Origin: Alcaligenaceae bacterium
Lineage (GTDB): Bacteria > Pseudomonadota > Gammaproteobacteria > Burkholderiales > Burkholderiaceae_B
NCBI GenBank assembly: GCA_013416405.1
Contig: JACCET010000008.1
Location: forward strand, 124,001-188,000
DNA length: 64,000 nt
Reading direction: 5' to 3'
A model generated the notes under the pieces. That model saw only the letters and a list, made by a program, of their open reading frames with translations, made no database searches and had not been told where the DNA came from. Below, one piece after another: positions 57,721 to 62,828 of this stretch. Within the stretch, counting starts at the first letter, position 1. The number at the start of each line of letters is the position of its first letter. Position numbers and translations under genes: made by a program.

Positions 57721-57843
57721 ATGAGCAAAAATGCCAACCATCAAGGCTTGTACTGGGAAGCCGTTAGCACCAAACCAGCCTCTTATCCGGTTCTTGCAGA
57801 CGATCTTGACGTCGATGTGGTGATTACGCTGAACAAGAATTGA
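57721..57843 (+). pseudogene. N-terminal remnant of an FAD-dependent amine oxidoreductase
   Basis: A 40-codon frame beginning MSKNANHQGLYWEAVSTKPA and ending DDLDVDVVITLNKN. The start resembles DAO/PuuB-type oxidases (S-YW-A-T-PA-P-L-GD-DVDVVIIGGG). The FAD glycine motif is replaced by a short unrelated tail, and the frame stops at 57841-57843. It is therefore a truncated gene start. Its TGA overlaps the ATG of the diiron oxidase gene, so the remaining leader may still drive coupled translation of that gene. Confidence 0.5.
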
Positions 57844-59276
57844 TGGATCGCCTGCGAACGTCAGATATCAACGATATGGACAGCGCGAAAATTCGTTCCG
57901 TTGTTTGCAAGGACGAAAGTCCGTCGCAGCATGATGCAAGAGAACTTTATTTCGATTTGCTCAATGCAAAGCCTGAGCAGACTACGCTGGCTCAGTCTCG
58001 CCGCTTTCTGTCCCGGCAGTTGACGAGTGTGACGGGGGTGCCAGCGGATCTGCCCGCTGACGTGAACGATCTGGCTCACTGGATGAGCGCGAATACGGCG
58101 GCAGTCGGCAAGCAGTATCGCCAATACCTGGACGAGCGACAAAATGGCGGAGCCCGTCGCTACTTTCCCGGCAAGGGGCATGCGCTGTATTTCCTGAACG
58201 CCGTTGCGCCCACCAAGCTGGTTGATGGTGCCTGGCTATACGGTGTGACGAGCCAGTGGCGTGACTCCCGCTACTCGGAACTCATCCGGATCTACCTGGA
58301 AGAACTGGGTGACGGCGAGCCTGAGCAGAACCATGTGGTGATGTACAAGAAGCTGCTGGCTGTGCATGACTGCCAGCAATGGGAGGCCCTGGATGAACCT
58401 TATTTCATGCAGGGTGCCATTCAACTGTCGCTGGCGCAGCATGCGCGCGAGTATCTGCCGGAAGTCATAGGTTTCAATCTGGGCTATGAGCAACTGCCGC
58501 TGCATTTATTGATCTGTGCCTACGAGTTGAACGAGTTGGGCATAGACCCCTACTATTTCACCCTTCATGTCACCATAGACAATGCCGCTTCGGGGCACGC
58601 TGCCAGGGCGGTGAAGTCGGTGACGGACGCCATGCCTGTTGCAGGCGGCCAGGACGAGTTTTATCAGCGCATTCGTAACGGCTATCAGCTTAATTCACTA
58701 GGGTTGGGGACCAATGAAATCATTGCCGGCTTCGACCTGAAGCAAGAGATGCTGGGCATCCTGGCGGCCAAGGCTTCGGTGGGTGCGGCGCTACATTCGG
58801 ACTATTGCCGTGTTGCGGGAAAAACGGTGACTCAATGGCTGTCGTCACCTGGACAAATACCGGATTTTGTCGGCGCCCTGGAAAGAATTGGATGGATACG
58901 CCGTCATACCCACCCGGAGAACAGCCGGTTCTGGAACCTGATCGTGGGTGAAAAGGCCCCGATGTTCGGCGTCTTCAACGCCTATGAAAAACAGGTTATC
59001 CATGACTGGATTGCGGGTGAGAGTCTGCCGGAATCCTTGCGTGGAAACAGCCGTGTTGTGCCTCGGCGCATCCAACCGTGTTCGAGCCGCCTGAGAGCTG
59101 ATCGTTCTGGCGGCGATTTCGATGCAGACGCGCTCATGTTGAAAGAAAGGCTGGCCAGTGTTGTGGACCCGAATATCGTCATGGATCTGCTGGTGCCGTG
59201 GTTGTCGCCCACGCGTCATCACACTGCGGTGGGTCTGATGGCAACGCGTATGTTTTCAAAAAGGATGGGCGCATGA
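57843..59276 (+). CDS. Haem-oxygenase-like diiron oxidase (HDO superfamily)
   Basis: 477-aa protein of the iron-containing redox enzyme/haem-oxygenase-2 family. A metal set spaced as in HDO enzymes is visible: Glu154 and His164 (YLEELGDGEPEQNH), Glu216 (NLGYEQLPLH), Asp246 and His252 (DNAASGHAARA). Such enzymes use O2 and a diiron centre to decarboxylate, desaturate or N-oxygenate amino acids or fatty acids. The N-terminal 120 residues and C-terminal 150 residues extend the core. The ATG at 57843 overlaps the stop of a gene remnant; ATG 57876 is also possible. It overlaps an NPPY methyltransferase gene (ATGATG), so the two act together on an unknown molecule. Confidence 0.75.
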   Translation: MDRLRTSDINDMDSAKIRSVVCKDESPSQHDARELYFDLLNAKPEQTTLAQSRRFLSRQLTSVTGVPADLPADVNDLAHWMSANTAAVGKQYRQYLDERQNGGARRYFPGKGHALYFLNAVAPTKLVDGAWLYGVTSQWRDSRYSELIRIYLEELGDGEPEQNHVVMYKKLLAVHDCQQWEALDEPYFMQGAIQLSLAQHAREYLPEVIGFNLGYEQLPLHLLICAYELNELGIDPYYFTLHVTIDNAASGHAARAVKSVTDAMPVAGGQDEFYQRIRNGYQLNSLGLGTNEIIAGFDLKQEMLGILAAKASVGAALHSDYCRVAGKTVTQWLSSPGQIPDFVGALERIGWIRRHTHPENSRFWNLIVGEKAPMFGVFNAYEKQVIHDWIAGESLPESLRGNSRVVPRRIQPCSSRLRADRSGGDFDADALMLKERLASVVDPNIVMDLLVPWLSPTRHHTAVGLMATRMFSKRMGA

Positions 59277-60226
59277 TGGCCGATGATCCAGACGTGGCCC
59301 TGGTGCAATTGGGCGAGGCACTGAAACAGCTGGATTATCGTCATATCACGGTTACGCCTGCCACCCATGCGCGTGTCAATGCACGCAAAAGTAACGAGTG
59401 GGCCAAGGACCCTACTGGGGTATTTGGCTGGAGCCGCCCGTTTCACGCCGAGATTGTTCCCGAACCTATCTTCAAGCTCATGCAAAAGGCCGGCATTACA
59501 GAGGCGTGCAAGGATGGCTGGCGCAGCACCTTGCGAGTCTCGGCCCTGAACAATCATCTGTATTTCCATTCGGCCTGGCCGACAGAACCTGCCGACGCTG
59601 TGTTCTTCGGACCCGACACTTATCGCTACGTAGAGGCAATGTTTCAGCATTTTCAAGTGAACGAATCATTGGTGCCACGTGCGGTGGACATAGGCTGTGG
59701 CGCCGGCCCGGGTGCCATAGAGCTGGCGCGCCGGCGGCCCGAGGCCGAAGTATTTGCCGTCGACATCAATGACGCGGCGTTGCGGTTGACACGAATCAAT
59801 GCGATTCTTGCAGGCGCGTCGATACACGCAAAGCGCAGCAACCTGCTGACCGGCCTCGACGGCGATTTTGATCTGATCATTGCGAATCCGCCTTACATGC
59901 AGGATCCGGCTGCGCGTGCCTATAGACATGGCGGCGGCACATTGGGCGCAGGGCTGTCGCAAGACATCATTGGCACGGCGCTGCAGCGGCTGAACCCGGG
60001 TGGGACATTGCTGCTTTACACCGGTTCGGCCATTGTCGACGGAATAGACCAATTTCGGGCCTCGACGGCAAAAATGCTGCAGGGGAAATGTGACTGGAGC
60101 TATCGCGAAATTGATCCGGACGTGTTTGGTGAAGAGCTTGAAACCGACACTTATGGCGATGTGGATCGTATTGCCGCCGTACTGCTTTGCGCCAGGATGC
60201 CGGGTAGAGCACCGAAGGAGAATTGA
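59273..60226 (+). CDS. NPPY-type SAM-dependent methyltransferase
   Basis: 317-aa class I methyltransferase. Motif I is AVDIGCGAGPG (to residue 147), Asp164 (FAVDIN) binds the ribose, and NPPY at 205-208 (LIIANPPYMQDP) is the motif of amino-group methylases such as HemK/PrmC and N6-adenine enzymes. The 120-residue N-terminal domain (TPATHARVNARKSNEWAKDP) is not one I recognise. The gene overlaps the diiron oxidase by four bases. The motif suggests N-methylation of an amide or amine, perhaps on the oxidase's product. It is followed directly by a broken DUF421 gene. Confidence 0.75.
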   Translation: MMADDPDVALVQLGEALKQLDYRHITVTPATHARVNARKSNEWAKDPTGVFGWSRPFHAEIVPEPIFKLMQKAGITEACKDGWRSTLRVSALNNHLYFHSAWPTEPADAVFFGPDTYRYVEAMFQHFQVNESLVPRAVDIGCGAGPGAIELARRRPEAEVFAVDINDAALRLTRINAILAGASIHAKRSNLLTGLDGDFDLIIANPPYMQDPAARAYRHGGGTLGAGLSQDIIGTALQRLNPGGTLLLYTGSAIVDGIDQFRASTAKMLQGKCDWSYREIDPDVFGEELETDTYGDVDRIAAVLLCARMPGRAPKEN

Positions 60227-60432
60227 ATGTTGGACATGAGTCTGGCATGGTGGGAGTTCATCGTCCGGGCACTAGTGGTATATGTGGTGCTGCTATTGAT
60301 CGTCAGGCTCTCGGGTAAACGCACCGTCTGAACATGATCATCGCCTTCCACGCCGCCGACGTCACTAAAGAAGAAATGGCCTATGCCATTCTGGAGGCCG
60401 ATGGCACCATCAATATCCTCAAAAAAAAATAA
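60227..60432 (+). pseudogene. DUF421/YetF membrane protein gene with internal deletion
   Basis: The first part encodes MLDMSLAWWEFIVRALVVYV and ends LIVRLSGKRTV followed by a stop at 60329; this is the start of DUF421 (YetF) membrane proteins. After it, in another frame, 60334-60432 encodes MAYAILEADGTINILKKK, the typical DUF421 C-terminal end. The central portion, about 120 residues, is missing. It is one base after the methyltransferase stop, so it was once in the same operon. Confidence 0.75.
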
Positions 60433-62731: not shown

Positions 62732-62828
62732 TGATCGGGGCCTAATCGCGGCATAATTCCCGCGTTTTGCGGTCTCGGCGGTTTCCTGGCAGGACGTTAT
62801 CTTTACCCCTCGAATGAGGGGAATTGGA

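Follow-up and report, generated by a model that had tools for sequence, protein, structure and literature searches.

The paired genes and their products

The locus described here is a pair of overlapping genes in a window of 64,000 nucleotides from an Alcaligenaceae bacterium (assembly GCA_013416405.1, contig JACCET010000008.1, positions 124,001 to 188,000). The window is the whole stretch of DNA analysed, and positions are counted from its first letter. The first gene encodes a haem-oxygenase-like diiron oxidase (HDO) and the second a methyltransferase (MT) of the type that uses S-adenosylmethionine (SAM). The features are as follows.

57843..59276, + strand: DtpC-type HDO, 477 amino acids (aa); PF14518 match, homology to Acinetobacter baumannii
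59273..60226, + strand: HemK/PrmC-like class I SAM MT, 317 aa; GCGAGPG, NPPY, MTS match
59273..59276, + strand: ATGA overlap of the HDO stop and MT start; from the sequence, the MT start backed by alignment
57721..57843, + strand: 40-codon remnant like the N-terminus of an FAD/Rieske oxidoreductase; blastp 42% over 36 aa, E 7e-5, against locus L060
60227..60432, + strand: two out-of-frame fragments directly 3' of the MT gene; weak match, 33% over 24 aa, E 0.09, against an open reading frame (ORF) of locus L049

A sequence-only reading of the window had described two overlapping genes at 57843-60226, the first for an HDO-superfamily protein with a candidate metal set and the second for an NPPY methyltransferase. 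Both ORFs were confirmed at these positions, with an overlap of four bases, and both family assignments held. The source genome is a 3.66-Mb draft, in which the pair is present once. Both genes are absent from the three same-genus genomes listed.

The HDO matches PF14518 (Haem_oxygenas_2) at E 3.1e-30, with 105.7 bits against a curated cut-off of 28.9. The candidate metal ligands are E154, H164, E207, E216, H242, D246 and H252, with E207 and E216 as two alternative candidate carboxylates. The set is intact, with no substitution at any of the seven positions in the 68 paired HDOs. An alignment of 34 rows has E207, E216, H242 and D246 in every row and E154, H164 and H252 in 33, the sole exception being an unpaired divergent copy (L058). 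These residues fit the metal motif E-H-E-H-(D/E)-H, with X5 spacing from D246 to H252. SznF and CADD have X2 spacing at the corresponding place. Spacing of the last three motif residues is reported to vary among HDOs (PMC11363339). Relatives at 35-58% identity occur in genomes across the phylum, in Pollutimonas, in Acinetobacter and on a Comamonadaceae plasmid, more than chance would give. No credible match was obtained in a PDB sequence search, the best HDO-like entry being 9pfw (E 0.67, profile). Among viral contigs a profile scan confirmed no HDO relative. A protein annotated as a LodA/GoxA oxidase dependent on cysteine tryptophylquinone (Paraburkholderia caribensis plasmid, L028, 1988-5398) is 30% identical to the HDO region and is perhaps an HDO-LodA fusion.

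The MT carries GCGAGPG and NPPY and matches MTS at E 2.2e-17 (342-aa form). NPPY is kept in 68 of 68 paired MTs. PrmC and HemK are the top-scoring curated models among the matches listed; TIGR03534 is matched at E 4.4e-20 over positions 71-171. Scores are below the curated cut-offs (TIGR03534, 72.2 against 199.1 bits; TIGR00536, 61.4 against 115.5 bits), as they are for every NCBIfam model among the matches listed (25 of 48). A 27-row alignment has the conserved stretches FFGPDTYR and DPDVFGEEL and a family-specific N-terminal region. The start is most likely at 59273 (ATGATG over the HDO stop), because relatives align from there; a start at 59198, giving the 342-aa form, was set aside.

Pairing and co-inheritance

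Presence was scored at E 1e-70 or better for the HDO and E 1e-35 or better for the MT. Among 398 genomes drawn from the phylum, 17 hold the HDO, 18 the MT and 15 both; among 200 genomes of the family the corresponding figures are 14, 12 and 12. Over 597 genomes, with the source genome counted once, both genes occur in 26, the HDO only in 4, the MT only in 3 and neither in 564 (Fisher p 4.6e-38, resting on related, non-independent genomes). Three genomes with weak HDO matches (G102, G130 and G254; E 6e-12 to 1e-13) were scored as without HDO.

The MT gene adjoins the HDO gene in 24 of the 29 non-self genomes with a full-length HDO (13 of 16 in the phylum draw, 11 of 13 in the family). Fourteen of these 24 pairs are co-directional and ten opposite; the 31 fetched loci, own locus included, give 15 and 10. 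The occurrence of two gene arrangements indicates that the pair survives rearrangement. In one genus, probably Pseudomonas-like (a guess, made partly from the class and from a BLAST remark in PMC13232832), the HDO is present in 125 of 199 genomes. There, each of the 44 fetched loci (L140-L181, L183 and L184) has the MT gene immediately 3' of the HDO gene and in the same orientation. Of these loci, 42 were picked by eye at intervals of about three from 126 ranked places, and the other two are those of G748. Locus counts rest on tblastn; the simple ORF caller picks wrong-strand shadows in some loci and missed the HDO in L150 and L177. Conserved pairing in other genomes, on which the sequence-only reading had made its proposal depend, is thus found in both samples.

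Pairwise distances of HDO and MT are strongly correlated. Over 68 pairs the Mantel r is 0.90, the best of 999 permutations reaching 0.20; L070, whose MT is cut by a contig end, was left out. In the wider set, with 24 pairs, r is 0.92 (best permutation 0.48). On the tree, the distribution of the pairing requires 4 changes, or 5 when L058 and further rows are included. The approximately unbiased test of one unpaired clade gives p 0.072, so that a single loss of the MT is not rejected. The Acinetobacter HDO branch groups with the paired copy L054 (Shimodaira-Hasegawa-like approximate likelihood ratio test, 97 and 96); given the long branch and odd composition, this placement is only suggestive. 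Genome G360 has two HDO copies, one paired and one unpaired; the unpaired copy is L058 (9236-10525). Its E154, H164 and H252 are replaced by N, Q and S, and it is therefore probably a degenerate or re-purposed paralogue.

The same MT family has a second HDO partner. In Komagataeibacter, Variovorax and another genome of the phylum (L074, L076 and L110) the MT adjoins a PF14518 protein of a 294-aa type, whose best PDB match is HrmI (9n1a, E 2.6e-23). Fifteen plasmid records carry this short HDO at E 1e-30. An MT match adjoins it in at least 8 of them, judged among the MT matches listed (20 of 70 records): six from Komagataeibacter, one from Variovorax and one from Sphingobium. In two MT-only genomes, G151 and G259, neither HDO type was found by tblastn within 16 kb of the MT. 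HrmI-like short HDOs were also seen on plasmids of several Alphaproteobacteria (e.g. Novosphingobium) and of one Legionella (hits H49-H57).

One explanation of the pairing is that the MT modifies a Gln or Asn side chain of the HDO itself, or of another protein, and so tunes or activates its target. Co-inheritance and adjacency fit an enzyme-substrate pair, PrmC and HemK are the best-scoring curated models among the matches listed, and the HDO CADD is described as an example of such proteins using their own side chains (PMC13108848). The MT is, however, far under the PrmC equivalog cut-off (72 against 199 bits) and partners a quite different HDO too, and Acinetobacter HDOs keep the same conserved core with no MT in the record searched. 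Protein methylation is accordingly considered distinctly unlikely.

Relation to DtpC and genomic surroundings

DtpC is a protectant of A. baumannii against desiccation and oxidative stress (Farrow, Wells and Pesci, PLoS One, June 2026; PMC13232832). According to that paper, its residues E143, H153 and H232, examined by mutation, are required for desiccation tolerance. It limits H2O2 in dried cells, gives no protection from acute H2O2, and complements alone in A. baumannii. Iron sequestration, scavenging of reactive oxygen species and synthesis of a protective small molecule are left by the authors as options for its mechanism. Overexpressed TetR-type regulators of A. baumannii are reported to lower katE, haem-oxygenase-like proteins and hemerythrin together (PMC9802203).

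The window HDO is 38% identical to the Acinetobacter gene product over 93% of its length (tblastn). In L073 an Acinetobacter HDO gene lies directly upstream of katE. Its product is taken as DtpC because it has E, H and H at 143, 153 and 232 and katE next to it; the gap to katE is 60 bp in L073 and 54 bp in PMC13232832. E154, H164 and H242 of the window HDO align with E143, H153 and H232 of this protein. By alignment, the window HDO is a full-length DtpC homologue, including the residues needed for protection. The database entry for the dtpC-katE region of L073 names 'Acinetobacter phage MD-2021a', although the genes are bacterial in appearance. Three A. baumannii records of chromosome size (3.7-4.1 Mb; NZ_CP077849.1, NZ_CP064203.1 and NZ_CP104448.1) are listed as plasmids.

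Stress genes recur beside the pair in the Pseudomonas-like genus. In stretches of up to 16 kb, LigD was found in 18 of 44 loci, Ku in 10 and either in 24 (e.g. L149 and L174); the only scale for these counts is that each genome of the genus has one or two LigD matches in about 6 Mb, of which the stretch covers about 16 kb. This grouping with genes of non-homologous end joining suggests a general-stress island. A YghA-like short-chain dehydrogenase/reductase (SDR) was matched in 8 of 44 loci (6 at 47% identity or more) and hemerythrin in 6; two of the eight YghA-like matches (L164 and L167, 29-32% identity) are probably other SDRs. KatE was found in 0 of 44 genus loci, and in the wider set near the pair in L056 only.

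These data bear on the possibility that the HDO protects directly, by peroxide scavenging or iron sequestration, and that the MT, though regulated together with it as part of one stress regulon, has a different task. DtpC acts without added partners in complementation, this MT is missing from the A. baumannii record searched, both mechanisms are among the options of the DtpC authors (PMC13232832), and the neighbours Ku/LigD, KatE and hemerythrin clearly do separate jobs. Against it stand the MT linkage (44 of 44 loci, compared with at most 20 of 44 for the other neighbour families counted), the co-inheritance of MT and HDO and the occurrence of the MT beside a different HDO subfamily, as well as the reported lack of protection from acute H2O2. 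Direct protection is rated as rather unlikely.

After the MT, the most frequent neighbour family counted in the genus is a YbdK-type carboxylate-amine ligase, present in 20 of 44 loci (15 downstream on the same strand, 5 divergent upstream). Of 20 of these genus genomes, 12 hold exactly one YbdK ligase, and 8 of these 12 have it at the HDO locus. A cyanophycin-synthetase-like gene occurs near the HDO in L045 (6716-9346), L060 and L061 and near the short HDO in L110 (3532-6150), the family being confirmed for L045 only. Transporter matches near the HDO (L042, L045 and L071) do not recur beyond near relatives. No carrier-protein family was found by Pfam among 30 neighbour proteins, a part of all neighbours.

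Such ligases, and the fluopsin C precedent for an HDO with N-methylation (PMC11363339), would suit a dedicated secondary-metabolite pathway, for an antibiotic or metallophore, that is not linked to stress. The lack of carrier-protein matches among the 30 neighbours scanned, the transporters that do not recur and the many stress genes nearby speak against it and make it improbable, as does the spread of the HDO to 125 of 199 genomes in one genus, which is broad for a specialised metabolite. The N-methylated-product pathway of the sequence-only reading fared in part: ligase neighbours keep the idea of a small molecule alive, whereas the nearest characterised relative, DtpC, is a stress protectant and the recurrent neighbours are mostly stress genes (end joining, catalase, hemerythrin, SDR).

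In the window, the pair is flanked by gene remains. The remnant at 57721..57843 ends in a TGA that overlaps the HDO ATG, and has no Pfam match of its own. The FAD/Rieske oxidoreductase that it resembles adjoins the HDO-MT pair in two Pollutimonas genomes; FAD and Rieske domains are present in the L061 counterpart (Pfam). The fragments at 60227..60432 have no Pfam match. The L049 ORF that they match itself resembles DUF421 at 26%, and the fragments are possibly a broken DUF421-like membrane gene. Other neighbours are an IclR regulator, a GMC oxidoreductase, a glyoxalase, a TetR regulator and a transposase-like ORF at 62814.

Proposed function and comparison with known systems

The preferred reading is that the two genes form a stress-survival module: a small compound derived from an amino acid would be oxidised by the HDO and N-methylated by the MT. 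It is advanced tentatively, with confidence a little short of even. No other neighbour family counted is linked as tightly to the HDO as the MT, and on this ground the two proteins very probably act in a single process. Gene context in relatives, together with the DtpC results, places this process in survival of oxidative stress during drying or stationary phase. A small protective metabolite is favoured, since HDOs activate O2 and the fluopsin C HDO pathway uses SAM for N-methylation. Under stationary-phase or drying conditions, the HDO would oxidise a small substrate of amino-acid origin with O2, by means of its dimetal site; in some genomes this substrate is perhaps built by the adjoining YbdK-type ligase. 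The MT would N-methylate the substrate or product of the HDO, and the resulting compound would limit H2O2 and iron-driven damage. The small-molecule substrate, the action of the MT on the same compound and the use under stress in the source genome are what we infer.

A fuller version is held more doubtfully. It would be a new O2- and SAM-dependent pathway, of a DtpC-type HDO, a HemK-like MT and, in many genomes of the Pseudomonas-like genus, a YbdK-type ligase, leading to an N-methylated metabolite that protects cells during drying or starvation, and grouped on the chromosome with end-joining and catalase genes. DtpC of A. baumannii could then be a pared-down version, with methylation lost or replaced by other genes.

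Several results weigh against a joint stress module. The HDO lacks an adjacent MT in 5 of 29 genomes: G196, G207, G474 and G516 have no MT match at E 1e-35, and G294 has one elsewhere in the genome. The MT is missing from the one whole A. baumannii record searched, where the best match reaches E 8e-6 over about 105 aa; as DtpC protects in this species, the MT is not universally needed. No match to KatE, whose operon is a DtpC trait, nor to LigD, Ku or YbdK ligase occurs in the 18 kb around the window pair (L059), and LigD of the source genome sits on another contig. The YbdK ligase is absent at E 1e-40 from 8 of 20 sampled genomes and from the source genome. The stress-neighbour tallies come from related genomes with no formal background, and common regulation without a common pathway could account for such neighbours. 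The AlphaFold2 models, each from 3 sequences, are of low confidence (mean pLDDT 37.2 for the HDO, 45.2 for the MT).

In a literature search with most subscription papers outside it, no title or abstract opening among the results listed indicated a link between HDO and MT; the word 'methyltransferase' is absent from the main text of the DtpC paper (PMC13232832) and of an HDO review (PMC13108848). The proposal concerns a widespread gene pair tied to stress survival. Co-inheritance with one MT and a frequently adjoining amide-forming ligase make the small-molecule option for DtpC directly testable.

In fluopsin C biosynthesis, the HDOs FlcE and FlcD and SAM-dependent N-methylation by FlcA are reported in one short pathway (PMC11363339). 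The present pair would likewise combine HDO chemistry with SAM-dependent N-methylation. It differs in that the FlcD structures (3bjd and 8w1q) are not recovered when the window HDO is searched with phmmer at E 1 and that no lyase was seen among the HDO-MT neighbours scanned.

HrmI (9n1a) functions in hormaomycin biosynthesis. It shares PF14518 membership with the window HDO, and the short HDO paired with the same MT family matches it best; the window HDO, unlike HrmI, is longer and of another subfamily, and HrmI is not among its PDB matches.

Known targets of PrmC and HemK, the Gln-N5 methyltransferases, are protein glutamines. The MT has a HemK-like catalytic domain and NPPY in common with them. 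Catalytic domain and NPPY are also shared with the 'Methyltransferase family protein' of 7rc2-7rc6, which we take to be AerE, a peptide Asn N-methyltransferase (an identity that a paper search did not confirm); a GPDxY motif ahead of motif I is shared with 7rc3. The family-specific N-terminal region and the DPDVFGEEL stretch distinguish the MT from both groups.

No MT gene adjoins dtpC, which is transcribed together with katE; in the window pair the MT is present, and katE is absent from the surroundings. The window HDO agrees with DtpC in being its full-length homologue, in keeping the three mutated residues and in the stress-gene context of its relatives.
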